A stretch of DNA of 64,000 bases from assembly GCF_002866025.1 (NCBI RefSeq), contig NZ_LNDE01000001.1, positions 248,001-312,000 of the forward strand, given 5' to 3'. Position 1 is the stretch's first letter. Each line of letters starts with the position of its first letter. The position numbers and the translations under genes are program-made. A model generated the notes under the pieces. It was not told the origin of the DNA and did not search any database. It worked only from the letters and a program-made list of their open reading frames with translations. This DNA is from Thermotoga sp. KOL6. GTDB taxonomy: Bacteria; Thermotogota; Thermotogae; Thermotogales; Thermotogaceae. This document shows positions 42,173 through 46,451 of the stretch, in pieces.

Positions 42173-42202
42173 TTGAAACAATGGGTCACTGTGTGATATA
42201 AT
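42173..42202 (+). promoter_or_regulatory. Promoter of the hydrogenase maturation operon
   Basis: TTGAAA (42173-42178), 18-base spacer, TATAAT (42197-42202). Predicted transcription start is near 42209, leaving a leader of about 115 bases. It is divergent from and close to the pstS promoter region. Confidence 0.7.
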
Positions 42203-42208
42203 TTCATC

Positions 42209-42323
42209 AGAAAGTGATAAAAATCACAAACCTCCTGAGGTGGAGGGAGAAATCCTGACACCGGGGGAGGGGAATGGATAGAAGTATACCCCTCTCCCGG
42301 TACGTGGAGAGGGGGTTTTCATT
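42209..42323 (+). promoter_or_regulatory. Structured leader with mutually exclusive hairpins controlling the first ribosome site
   Basis: The leader can form three elements. First, a small hairpin GTGAT-AAAA-ATCAC (42215-42228). Second, a 12-13 bp stem pairing 42260-42272 (ACCGGGGGAGGGG) with 42289-42301, with a 16-base loop and one G-U pair. Third, a 9-bp hairpin pairing CCCCTCTCC (42289-42297) with GGAGAGGGG (42306-42314), followed by TTTT. The second and third share 42289-42297 and exclude each other. The third hides GGAGAGGGGG, the ribosome site 8 bases before the TTG start. This looks like a riboswitch or attenuator expression platform. No known aptamer was recognised. Confidence 0.6.
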
Positions 42324-42572
42324 TTGGAAAAAAGATTTTATATACTCACCATCGTCGTGGAAGATAGAGAAAGAGCCTATCGCCAAGTAAACGAACTTCT
42401 TCACAATTTTTCTGAAGACATTCTACTCAGAGTAGGTTATCCCGTCAAAGAAGAAAATGTGGCGATTATTTTCCTCGTTCTGAAAACAGATAACGATACG
42501 ATCGGTGCCCTCTCTGGAAAACTTGGACAGATTTCCGGTGTTCGGGTGAAAACAGTCACTCTGAAGAGGTGA
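42324..42572 (+). CDS. [FeFe]-hydrogenase system putative regulator (TM1266-like)
   Basis: An 82-residue ACT/NikR-C-like alpha/beta protein nearly identical to remembered T. maritima TM1266, annotated as an iron-only hydrogenase system regulator. It begins MEKRFYILTIVVEDRE and shows a ferredoxin-like beta-alpha-beta pattern with a conserved 'DNDTIGALSGKLGQISGV'. There is no DNA-binding segment, so it may act by binding a ligand or partner. TTG start at 42324; its ribosome site is inside the leader hairpin. It is the first gene of the hydG-hydE operon. Confidence 0.93.
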   Translation: MEKRFYILTIVVEDRERAYRQVNELLHNFSEDILLRVGYPVKEENVAIIFLVLKTDNDTIGALSGKLGQISGVRVKTVTLKR

Positions 42573-42577
42573 TAAGC

Positions 42578-43993
42578 ATGTATGTATTTGTAAGGGAACG
42601 TGTGGAAAGCAAGTCTTTCATTCCCGAAGAGAAGATCTTCGAACTCCTGGAAAAAACAAAAAATCCCGATCCTGTCAAGGTAAGAGAGATCATAAAGAAA
42701 TCATTGGACAAAAACAGGCTCGAACCAGAAGAAACAGCCACTCTCTTGAACGTGGAAGACCCGAAACTTCTAGAGGAGATCTTCGAAGCGGCACGTACCC
42801 TGAAGGAAAGGATCTACGGTAACAGGATAGTGCTGTTCGCTCCTCTGTACATAGGGAACGATTGTGTTAACGATTGTGTGTACTGTGGTTTCAGAAGTTC
42901 GAACACCCTGGTTGAAAGAAAAACGCTGAACGATGATCAATTGAGAGAAGAAGTCAAAGCTCTTGTCTCACATGGGCACAAGAGATTGATCGTGGTTTAT
43001 GGAGAACATCCGAAATACTCCCCGGAATTCATCGCAAAGACTATCGACATTGTGTACAACACGAAGTTTGGAAAAGGAGAGATAAGAAGAGTGAACGTTA
43101 ACGCCGCTCCTCAAACTGTTGAAGGTTACAAGATAATAAAATCCGTTGGAATTGGTACCTTCCAAATCTTTCAAGAGACGTATCACAAAAAAACATACTT
43201 GAAACTTCATCCACGGGGACCGAAATCGAATTACAACTGGAGGTTGTACGGATTAGATCGAGCGATGATGGCTGGCATAGACGACGTGGGAATTGGAGCC
43301 CTTTTCGGTCTCTACAACTGGAAATTCGAAGTTATGGGTCTTCTCTACCACACAATACACCTTGAAGAAAGATTTGGAGTTGGACCACATACCATCTCCT
43401 TCCCGAGGATAAAACCCGCTATAAACACCCCGTACTCACAAAAACCTGAACATGCCGTAAACGATGAGGATTTCAAAAAACTAGTTGCTATCATCAGGCT
43501 CTCTGTACCTTATACGGGAATGATCCTCACTGCGAGAGAGCCTGCAAAACTTAGAGATGAGGTTATAAAGCTTGGAGTCTCGCAGATAGATGCGGGTTCA
43601 AGGATAGGAATAGGAGCGTATTCCCATAGAGAAGACGACGAAGACAGAAAAAGACAATTCACTTTGGAAGATCCAAGGCCACTGGATCAAGTAATAAGAA
43701 GTCTCTTGAAAGAAGGATTCGTTCCTTCCTTCTGTACAGCGTGTTACAGAGCGGGAAGGACGGGTGAGCATTTCATGGAGTTTGCCATACCTGGTTTCGT
43801 CAAAAACTTCTGTACTCCCAACGCCCTTTTCACACTTCAGGAGTATCTCTGCGATTATGCAACCACAGAAACAAGAAAAGTGGGTGAAAAAGTTATTGAA
43901 AAGGAACTCCAGAAGATGAATCCAAAGATCAGAGAAAAAGTGAGAGAAGGCCTCAAAAGAATAAAACTCGGTGAGAGAGATGTTAGATTTTAA
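42578..43993 (+). CDS. hydG: [FeFe]-hydrogenase H-cluster maturase HydG (radical SAM tyrosine lyase)
   Basis: Splits tyrosine to give the CO and CN ligands of the hydrogenase H-cluster. ATG 42578 (8 bases after GAGG) gives 471 residues. The radical SAM cysteines C96, C100, C103 lie in 'CVNDCVYCGF', and the C-terminal HydG-specific cluster motif is C386, C389 ('FCTACYRAGRTG') and C412, absent in ThiH, which it otherwise resembles. Other conserved parts are 'ETYHKKTYLKLHPRGPKSNY' and 'DAGSRIGIGAY'. HydF is not in the window. Confidence 0.97.
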   Translation: MYVFVRERVESKSFIPEEKIFELLEKTKNPDPVKVREIIKKSLDKNRLEPEETATLLNVEDPKLLEEIFEAARTLKERIYGNRIVLFAPLYIGNDCVNDCVYCGFRSSNTLVERKTLNDDQLREEVKALVSHGHKRLIVVYGEHPKYSPEFIAKTIDIVYNTKFGKGEIRRVNVNAAPQTVEGYKIIKSVGIGTFQIFQETYHKKTYLKLHPRGPKSNYNWRLYGLDRAMMAGIDDVGIGALFGLYNWKFEVMGLLYHTIHLEERFGVGPHTISFPRIKPAINTPYSQKPEHAVNDEDFKKLVAIIRLSVPYTGMILTAREPAKLRDEVIKLGVSQIDAGSRIGIGAYSHREDDEDRKRQFTLEDPRPLDQVIRSLLKEGFVPSFCTACYRAGRTGEHFMEFAIPGFVKNFCTPNALFTLQEYLCDYATTETRKVGEKVIEKELQKMNPKIREKVREGLKRIKLGERDVRF

Positions 43994-44237
43994 AAAAATA
44001 CTCGAAGAGATAGCTGAAAAGTACGACTGCAAAATCTGGATTTCGGAAAAAATCGGAAAGAGGTGGTCTTTCTATAAAGATTTGAAAGCGGGGAGAGAAA
44101 AATTCCTCCCCGCGGTGCTCCTACTGGAAAATGGAAAATTTGGCGTCTTCGCTGAGGATTTTCCAGAAGAGAAAAAAGGAGAAGTGCTTCCTATTCTGAA
44201 GAGATTACTGGAGGGATTGCATGAAGGACATCATTGA
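43980..44237 (+). CDS. Small uncharacterised protein between hydG and hydE
   Basis: An 85-residue protein (from ATG 43980; GTG 43971 is possible) with no family I know. It is charged, with predicted helix at the N-terminus ('DFKKILEEIAEKYDCKIWI'), a central beta portion ('FLPAVLLLENGKFGVFAED') and a C-terminal helix. A single Cys is present, so it is not a metal-cluster protein. It overlaps hydG by 14 bases and hydE by 17, which ties it to hydrogenase maturation in translation. A homologous gene appears in the same place in T. maritima (TM1268, from memory). Function unknown; a maturation accessory role is the obvious guess. Confidence 0.82.
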   Translation: MLDFKKILEEIAEKYDCKIWISEKIGKRWSFYKDLKAGREKFLPAVLLLENGKFGVFAEDFPEEKKGEVLPILKRLLEGLHEGHH

Positions 44238-45261
44238 GAAACTAGAAAAAAGAGAATTCACTCGCGACGTTTTAAAACAAGCTCTTTCCATAAACGACAA
44301 AGTGTTCAACGATGAACTATTCAAATTGGCTGATCAGATGAGAAAAAAATACGTGGGTGACGAAGTGCACGTGAGAGCCATAATAGAATTCTCGAACGTG
44401 TGCCGGAAGAATTGTCTCTATTGTGGCCTTCGAAGAGATAACAAAAATTTGAAAAGGTATCGAATGACCCCTGAGGAAATTATTGAAAGGGCGAAACTCG
44501 CCGCTCAATTCGGTGCCAAGACGATCGTGCTTCAATCCGGTGAAGATCCTTACTACATGCCTGATGCAATAGTAGAGATTGTGAAAGAAATAAAAAAAAT
44601 GGGTGTGGCTGTAACTCTGAGTCTTGGAGAATGGCCGAGAGAGTTCTACGAAAAGTGGAAAGAGGCGGGAGCAGATAGATACCTTCTCAGGCACGAAACG
44701 GCGAATCCGATGCTTCATAAAAAACTCCGGCCGGACACCTCGTTTGAAAACAGAGTGAAGTGTCTTTTAACCCTCAAAGAACTCGGCTACGAAACAGGTG
44801 CGGGATCCATGGTGGGATTGCCGGGACAAACGATAGAAGATCTCGTCGATGATCTGCTCTTTCTCAAAGAACACGATTTCGATATGGTGGGAATAGGTCC
44901 CTTCATACCACATCCAGACACTCCCCTTGCCAACGAGAAAAAGGGAGATTTCGTACTCACACTGAAGATGGTCGCACTCACACGAATTCTCATACCGGAC
45001 TCGAACATCCCTGCAACTACAGCCATGGGAACGATCGTACCCGGTGGAAGAGAGATCACTCTCAAATGTGGAGCAAACGTAATCATGCCAAACTGGACTC
45101 CTTCTCCTTACAGGCATCTCTATCAGCTTTATCCAGGGAAAATTTGCGTTTTTGAAAAAGATACCGCTTGCATACCCTGTGTGATGAAAATGATCGAGCA
45201 TCTGGGAAGAAAACCTGGAAGAGATTGGGGCAGTAGAAAAAAAGTCTTTGAAACTGTATGA
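44221..45261 (+). CDS. hydE: [FeFe]-hydrogenase maturation radical SAM protein HydE
   Basis: Radical SAM enzyme of 346 residues that takes part in building the H-cluster diiron unit. SAM cluster cysteines C61, C65, C68 are in 'CRKNCLYCGL', followed by 'YRMTPEEIIERAKLAAQFGAK', 'VLQSGEDPYY' and 'GSMVGLPGQTIEDL'. The barrel and ending 'PNWTPSPYRHLYQLYPGK' match T. maritima HydE (TM1269), whose structure is known. A C-terminal Cys pair (CIPC, near residue 319) is also present. ATG 44221 overlaps the small upstream gene. Confidence 0.97.
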   Translation: MKDIIEKLEKREFTRDVLKQALSINDKVFNDELFKLADQMRKKYVGDEVHVRAIIEFSNVCRKNCLYCGLRRDNKNLKRYRMTPEEIIERAKLAAQFGAKTIVLQSGEDPYYMPDAIVEIVKEIKKMGVAVTLSLGEWPREFYEKWKEAGADRYLLRHETANPMLHKKLRPDTSFENRVKCLLTLKELGYETGAGSMVGLPGQTIEDLVDDLLFLKEHDFDMVGIGPFIPHPDTPLANEKKGDFVLTLKMVALTRILIPDSNIPATTAMGTIVPGGREITLKCGANVIMPNWTPSPYRHLYQLYPGKICVFEKDTACIPCVMKMIEHLGRKPGRDWGSRKKVFETV

Positions 45262-45275: not shown

Positions 45276-45311
45276 ATGATTCGGTACACAAACACAACAG
45301 GAGGCTCACTC

Positions 45312-46451
45312 ATGAACACAGATGACATCTTGTTCTCTCACGGTGAAGGGGATATTCCTTTCAAAGCACTGTCTTTTCCCATCTTTGAGACGACGAATTT
45401 CTATTTCGACAGTTTTGATGAGATGTCCAAAGCGTTAAGAAGTGGAGACTACGAGTACGTTTACAACAGGGGGAGTAACCCCACTACAAGACTGGTTGAA
45501 AAGAAACTTGCAGCGCTTGAAAAGTGCGAAGATGCCCGTCTCGTCTCTTCCGGTATGAGTGCTATTACGCTTTCCATCCTTCATTTTTTGAAGAGAGAAG
45601 ATCATGTGGTGTGTGTGAACGAGGCGTATTCATGGGCCAAAAGATTTTTCAGATACCTTTCGAAAAAATTTGATGTCGAGGTTACATTTGTGCCTCCCAA
45701 CGCCGATGAAGTACTGAGAGCTCTAACGAGAAAGACGAAACTGATCTACCTCGAAAGTCCCACGAGCATGAGGATGAAGGTATTGGATATAAGAAAAATA
45801 ACAAAAGTTGCAAAGGAGCAAGGAATAAAAACCATCATCGACAACACGTGGGCATCTCCTATTTTTCAAAATCCAAAAGAACTTGGTGTAGATATAGTGG
45901 TACATTCCGCAACGAAGTACATTTCCGGCCACGGTGATGTAATGGCGGGAGCGATAGCAGGAAGCAAAGAAGACATGAACGGGATATTTCAAGACGAGTT
46001 CAAAAGTATAGGTTCGGTCCTTTCGCCGATAGAGTCGTGGCTCATCTTGAGAGGATTGAGAACGCTCGAAATTCGTATGAAAAGACACTATGAAAATGCA
46101 CTCGTCGTATCTGACTTCCTGTTTGAACACCCTAAAGTTCTCGAGGTGAATTATCCAATGAATCCAAAGTCACAAGAATACGAACTTGCTTCTTCACAAA
46201 TGAGTGGAGGATCTGGACTGATGAGTTTCAGATTGAAAACAAACAGTGTGGGAAAGGTGAAAGAGTTTGTGGAAAGTTTGAAAGTATTCAAACTCGCTGT
46301 GAGTTGGGGTAGTTACGAAAATCTGGTGGTTCCAAGAGCAGCTTACGGCGATTGTCCAAAAGAAGATGTAAATCTCATTAGGATCCATGTTGGTCTTGGA
46401 GATCCTTCAAAACTTGTGGAAGATTTAGAGCAAGCACTCAGAAAAATATAA
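45312..46451 (+). CDS. Cys/Met metabolism PLP enzyme (cystathionine gamma-synthase/methionine gamma-lyase type)
   Basis: A 379-residue fold-type I PLP enzyme acting on sulfur amino acids. ATG 45312 follows AGGAGG by 7 bases. Family parts: '[22 protein letters not shown]', '[15 protein letters not shown]', '[13 protein letters not shown]' and the PLP lysine K202 in '[14 protein letters not shown]', then '[19 protein letters not shown]'. Sequence alone does not separate gamma-synthase, gamma-lyase or sulfhydrylase. A Trp instead of the common Tyr/Phe in '[10 protein letters not shown]' is noted. Ends at a bidirectional terminator. Confidence 0.92.

Follow-up and report, generated by a model that had tools for sequence, protein, structure and literature searches.

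The leader of the [FeFe]-hydrogenase maturation operon of Thermotoga sp. KOL6 (positions 42209–42323 of a 64,000-nt stretch, hereafter the window: contig NZ_LNDE01000001.1, 248,001–312,000, forward strand) was found to carry a 40-nt hairpin. It represents an RNA family new to Rfam, although the type of device is a known one. Judged from sequence, the leader is, with a probability of about 0.58, a TM1266-dependent feedback attenuator of H-cluster biosynthesis, the product of the first gene of the operon (TM1266) being the candidate reader. The element, its structure, the alternative pairings, the gene set and the co-occurrence with TM1266 were taken directly from the genomes; a riboswitch-like leader had been proposed at this site in an earlier reading made from the letters alone, without database searches (the sequence-only reading).

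The putative sensor hairpin, 42231–42270 (+), was obtained from the minimum free energy (MFE) fold, from RNAalifold and from covariation. It consists of the outer helix P1 (42231–42236/42265–42270), loop 1 (GA 42237–42238 with GG 42263–42264), a central helix (42239–42242/42259–42262), loop 2 (GA 42243–42244 with GA 42257–42258) and P2b (42245–42248/42253–42256). The two strands are near-identical, so that the central helix contains a pseudo-two-fold axis and is flanked at either end by a CUGA/RAGG loop; in these internal loops CUGA lies opposite RAGG, i.e., tandem G·A/A·R mismatches beside U·G. The consensus among the aligned homologues was 5'-YYCUGA-GRUG-RAGGR-loop-YYCUGA-CAYC-RAGGR, and that of the element in general 5'-YYCUGA-N4-RAGGR-loop-YYCUGA-N4'-RAGGR; the same hairpin was recovered unaided by RNAalifold from 47 homologues. 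The CCTCC/GGAGG pairings pointed out in the sequence-only reading proved to be the outer helix of this hairpin, already present in the MFE fold, the hairpin itself having gone unrecognised there.

In the alignment of homologues 94.9% of cells were paired (84.6% after shuffling) with 93 double changes (32.7 after shuffling), and double compensatory changes were found at 8 of 13 pairs; covariation of the outer P1 pairs and of the first P2b pair is not a selection effect, because these pairs were absent from the search model R1. Across phyla (51 sequences) the figures were 92.3% against 70.1% and 136 against 47; the central helix was fully exchanged while the two loops stayed constant, and one central pair, paired in 51/51, was U-A in 14, G-C in 13, C-G in 12 and A-U in 11, a covariation partly selected, as the loop scanner used for collection demanded most central pairs. 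The low rate of that scanner in control windows shows that the central pairing is not due to chance. As a negative control, the structure shifted by one column paired 47% versus 92%; an alternative register with a bulged G in CUGA/RAGG pairs fitted nearly equally (93.8% versus 94.9%). In Aminicenantes (L208, 5942–5983) a variant was observed whose central helix has just 3 bp, GGG/CCC; the loop spacing is not strictly four pairs. Compensatory base changes in homologues, by which structured cis-regulatory RNAs are generally recognised, were thus present, the covariation test over orthologous leaders suggested in the sequence-only reading was decisive, and it is near certain that the RNA element exists and has the predicted structure. 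That reading had recognised no aptamer, in agreement with Rfam 15, in which no match on the element was obtained at gathering score (window, 20 Thermotogota loci, 14 other-phylum loci). Two sub-threshold matches were rejected: L10_leader, the best (22.1 bits versus a cut-off of 44), which rests largely on the terminator, and the Moco riboswitch RF01055 (13.9 bits, E 0.89, versus a cut-off of 36).

The promoter TTGAAA-18-TATAAT was located at 42173–42202 (+), with an extended −10 (TG before) and a predicted start at ~42209; TATAAT/TAAAAT-type boxes occur close upstream of the hairpin in most homologous leaders. Two further stems were obtained: the antiterminator stem P3 (42260–42272 with 42289–42301, +; 13 pairs, one G-U), which draws on the hairpin's 3' half, and the terminator (42289–42319, +), a stem of 9 pairs (42289–42297/42306–42314) followed by GTTTT, whose 3' arm doubles as the ribosome-binding site GGAGAGGGGG (42306–42315). 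As 42289–42297 is common to both stems, they are mutually exclusive. Promoter, both stems and their mutual exclusion had been placed correctly in the sequence-only reading. The 115-nt leader had a folding energy of −52 kcal/mol, a value reached by 0/200 shuffles (z = −5.45), the MFE fold being the hairpin 42231–42270, with two symmetric 2 × 2 internal loops, plus terminator. Energies of the terminator and 13-bp-stem states were −52.0 and −50.1 kcal/mol at 37 °C (gap 1.9), −29.2 and −27.9 at 60 °C, and −13.6 and −13.0 at 80 °C (gap 0.6).

An intrinsic terminator followed the element in 59/65 Thermotogota elements and in 30/30 leaders tested from other phyla (nearly all Clostridia), against 23% of random windows. 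The 3' half of the hairpin paired with the 5' arm of the terminator in 55/59 terminator-bearing Thermotogota leaders (p ≤ 0.05 each versus shuffles; mean antiterminator pairing score 30.3 versus 14.6 shuffled) and significantly so in 11/30 other-phylum leaders. A conserved antiterminator excluding an intrinsic terminator, which defines an attenuator, was therefore found, and attenuator logic of the element is considered likely. The Thermotogota leaders lacking a terminator all belong to one family, Mesoaciditogaceae (f8), in which P1 has as its 3' strand the Shine-Dalgarno (SD) sequence of the gene itself, AGGAGG; in three genomes of this family (G021, G022, G024) the SD serves a short leader open reading frame (ORF) running into a terminator, so that loss of translation would likewise turn the genes off. 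At the loci L082, L083 and L087 a short leader ORF driven by the element overlaps a terminator, which suggests translation-coupled attenuation in that genus. From the anatomy, every platform would give the same direction, hairpin formed being OFF. It is very improbable that the leader is a constitutive terminator or ribosome-site-occluding segment that sets the expression level, with the alternative stem a by-product of purine and pyrimidine runs: the leader is GC- and purine-rich, and near-isoenergetic folds are common in such sequence, but the double compensatory changes, the four Watson–Crick pairs at one central position, the antiterminator kept in 55 of 59 leaders and the reuse of the element before unlinked genes of one pathway all speak against it. 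The riboswitch- or attenuator-like expression platform claimed at the outset is thus strongly supported by covariation, alternative pairing and the recurrence of the element before hydF, hydE and hydA.

This recurrence was seen when a nucleotide search of relatives gave a second, unlinked copy before hydF; in all Thermotoga examined, hydF is preceded by the core CTGAGGTGRAGGG...CCGACACCG. In another genus the element heads an operon beginning with hydE. Where the maturases lie in two transcription units the element stands on both, and where all are in one operon (G003) there is a single copy. The covariance model R1, built from 12 cores, matched genomes in most Thermotogota families, the best and nearly all weaker matches lying directly upstream of TM1266-hydG, hydF or hydA (the latter, the [FeFe]-hydrogenase gene itself, in three genomes of one genus). 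The hairpin-only model R2 was run over 103 Thermotogota genomes: genuine sites scored ≥29.6 bits and the background ≤24 bits, and the element was present in 64/103. Five genomes missed by R1 and left out of training (G065, G033, G051, G023, G101) gave R2 scores of 37–44 bits upstream of TM1266/hydG. Of the weak R2 matches in Thermotogota (~15–24 bits), those inspected sat in coding regions or near rpsF and were discarded. All Thermotogota targets were H-cluster genes (TM1266-hydG, hydF, hydE, hydA) except one copy, in G030, before an SsuA/NMT1-like ATP-binding cassette (ABC) importer (L125, 1930–4457).

The element was also found in Clostridia, Atribacterota, Synergistota, Aminicenantes and KSB1. 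R2 alone found it upstream of TM1266 in Synergistetes, Aminicenantes, KSB1 and Clostridia. The loop scanner (two loops fixed, paired central helix), applied to 80 TM1266 loci from other-phylum genome contigs, gave a site scoring ≥28 in the 320 nt before TM1266 at 46% of the loci, versus 0.15% of 1343 control windows; the central helices in Clostridia were UUGC/GCAA, GCUU/GAGC or CCGC/GCGG. An unselected search of 391 Clostridia genomes with model R3 gave 53 genomes with a match. Among the best 30 matches, 17 lay before TM1266, 6 before hydG, 1 before hydF, 3 before aspartate ammonia-lyase and 1 before a NuoE-like subunit, possibly of a bifurcating hydrogenase (28/30 in all); the other two (L248, L254) were rejected as lying inside coding sequence. 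Ammonia-lyases supply the nitrogen of the bridging ligand of the H-cluster and cluster with hyd operons (PMC11736057). In an Athalassotoga-type genome the hydF operon led by the element was observed to run on into aspA and serine ammonia-lyase; both lyases occur in the hydF operon at L121 and L122 (Athalassotoga-type genomes), which fits the proposed nitrogen source of the bridge. In Sedimentibacter and Tissierellales the element leads TM1266 operons without hyd genes, with an SsuA/NMT1-like ABC importer. Such an importer was seen downstream of TM1266 at six loci (L166, L162, L169, L187, L209, L212), and the tie between importer and element occurs in two phyla; the substrate of the importer might point to the signal or to a precursor of the H-cluster.

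TM1266 is NikR-C-like and without a DNA-binding domain. HydG and TM1266 were present in 64/64 element-positive Thermotogota genomes. In genus g34 five genomes (G060–G064) carry HydG and have neither TM1266 nor the element, while in G065, of the same genus, both are present at the syntenic position, adjoining the tmRNA gene; in other genomes (G021–G024, G032–G034) TM1266 is relocated and the element retained. In Clostridia, 47/53 genomes with the element carry TM1266. The sequence-only reading had listed iron, S-adenosylmethionine (SAM), tyrosine, redox state or the TM1266-like protein as signals; the protein fits best among those considered, because of the dyad-symmetric site, the joint loss with TM1266 and the presence of the element before TM1266 without hyd genes, and a metabolite ligand is the rival that stays.

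In that main rival, rated as unlikely, a small-molecule or metal riboswitch would bind two ligand copies (Fe2+, SAM or an H-cluster intermediate) in its two loops, whereby the hairpin would be stabilised (OFF), and TM1266 would be merely a regulated gene. Such a riboswitch would accord with the layout in cis, in which terminator, SD and translation-coupled variants of the platform occur as they do in riboswitches, with targets forming one pathway that includes the ammonia-lyases feeding the bridging amine (PMC11736057), with the SsuA-like importers and with the few element-bearing genomes in which TM1266 was not detected. It is disfavoured by the size and dyad symmetry of the hairpin, tiny and with only 2 × (CUGA/RAGG) fixed, which would resemble the site of a dimeric protein more than a metabolite pocket; by the missing element in 5/5 complete HydG-positive, TM1266-negative Thermotogota genomes; and by the TM1266 operons led by the element without hyd genes. 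That the hairpin is read by some other RNA-binding protein or by a factor of general function (ribosome, NusG, CspA-like), TM1266 being linked via the hydrogenase operon only, is decidedly improbable: TM1266 and the hyd genes co-occur, and the association is to that extent confounded, but the joint absence in g34 with HydG kept and the element before TM1266 in non-hyd operons count against this explanation.

Several observations weigh against TM1266 as the reader. Among HydG-positive Clostridia the element was found in 39/192 genomes with TM1266 and in 3/54 without (Fisher p = 0.013, shared ancestry ignored), the completeness of the latter genomes being uncertain; the loss in g34 is one event. 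Two exceptions are plausible: the elements of G304 (before hydG) and G243 (before the NuoE-like gene) look genuine without TM1266, which leaves room for a riboswitch or another protein. The element was undetected in 153/192 HydG-positive, TM1266-positive Clostridia and in the Thermotogota genome G017. The forced P3 state of the window leader also allows pairing between the 5' pyrimidines and the ribosome site. To our knowledge, TM1266 has no RNA-binding motif. In the open-licence papers nothing relevant on TM1266 was found, neither target nor mechanism, and none joined H-cluster and riboswitch; an earlier description elsewhere is possible.

For TM1266 as reader, the transcription start, the direction of switching, the binding of TM1266 and the sensed signal are predicted as follows. 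The nascent RNA would first fold into the 40-nt hairpin, with its two near-identical loops and a two-fold axis across the 4-bp helix of free sequence. A factor acting in trans would stabilise the hairpin and render its 3' half unavailable to the downstream pyrimidine tract; the freed tract would form the terminator (in other genomes the ribosome site would stay buried), and the operon would be off. In the unbound hairpin the 3' half would be free to form the antiterminator with the pyrimidine tract, and transcription would continue into the maturase genes. The factor is most likely a TM1266 dimer, which would control its own operon in cis and hydF, hydA and aspA in trans; the signal sensed by it is perhaps an H-cluster precursor or iron. 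In its widest form the proposal makes TM1266/PF21699 a new family of feedback regulators that bind RNA, have a NikR-C/ACT-like fold and lack a DNA-binding domain. In six phyla or more they would read a two-fold symmetric hairpin and, in response to an H-cluster intermediate or iron, tune the assembly of the H-cluster (hydEFG, hydA, ammonia-lyases, SsuA-like importer); this form is given about even odds.

Upstream of the RNA element the palindrome GTGATAAAAATCAC (42214–42227) fits GTGA-N6-TCAC of the Rex consensus TTGTGAANNNNTTCACAA (PMC6391272) and lies near the promoter; it is probably a Rex DNA operator. Other leaders have similar sites ahead of the hairpin; in hydF leaders and other families the palindrome is not kept as a hairpin, and for this reason and because of its fit to Rex it is placed outside the RNA element. 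The hairpin at 42215–42228 of the sequence-only reading is this palindrome, one base off; its assignment to the RNA did not stand. Rex (NADH/NAD+) regulates [FeFe]-hydrogenase and hydG (PMC6391272), and a Thermotoga Rex regulon is cited in PMC3750489; in Caldicellulosiruptor, Rex binds upstream of a hydG operon whose first gene carries the annotation CopG-family regulator (PMC6391272). This gene would be TM1266-like. The gene set seems to be under dual control, by redox at the DNA level and by feedback at the RNA level.

The genes of the operon (all +) were as follows. The TM1266-like gene, 42324–42572, has a TTG start and encodes 82 amino acids with a NikR-C-like domain (TIGR03959, 98.3 bits; PF21699, 102.7 bits; a TM1266 structure is PDB 2nzc); a second, weakly TM1266-like paralogue (~25–32 bits to PF21699) was observed at G000:C3:146005, with equivalents in most Thermotogota genomes. 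The TM1266-like gene of the operon is followed by the H-cluster radical SAM maturases hydG, 42569–43993 (TIGR03955, 539.7 bits), and hydE, 44221–45261 (TIGR03956, 376.3 bits). Between the two lies an ORF of 88 amino acids, 43971–44237, kept in many Thermotogota hyd operons, for which no Pfam or NCBIfam model matched. After hydE a pyridoxal phosphate enzyme was observed (45276–46451), the best match being bifunctional L-alanine/L-glutamate racemase, just under the curated cut-off.

With this element TM1266, a "putative regulator", gains a concrete candidate target, and a cross-phylum H-cluster regulon is defined from genome data, including an importer and the ammonia-lyases, whose link to the bridging amine is a recent finding. 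Control of H-cluster assembly becomes directly testable, with a possible handle for raising the yield of active hydrogenase in biohydrogen work.

Among known systems, Rex controls the same genes and a Rex-like palindrome is present in the window leader; Rex represses at the DNA level and does not account for the conserved RNA hairpin, which occurs also in leaders without the palindrome. With the termination riboswitches (SAM-I, Moco and others in Rfam) the element shares its position 5' of the genes in a biosynthetic operon, an antiterminator and a terminator that exclude each other, SD-occlusion variants and a single cofactor pathway; unlike them it belongs to no Rfam family at gathering score and has no known aptamer core. 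The RAT (ribonucleic antiterminator) hairpin is bound by LicT/SacY/BglG dimers and is likewise short and pseudo-two-fold, with two similar internal loops, beside an intrinsic terminator, and a homodimer would be the partner here as well. The loop sequences differ, and the protein-bound RAT hairpin is itself the antiterminator (ON), whereas the present hairpin would oppose the antiterminator (OFF); the linked protein is TM1266-like and NikR-C related, with no relationship to CAT/PRD proteins such as LicT. The first gene of the operon is a member of the TM1266 family (TIGR03959/PF21699, putative iron-only hydrogenase system regulator), for which an RNA target is proposed here.
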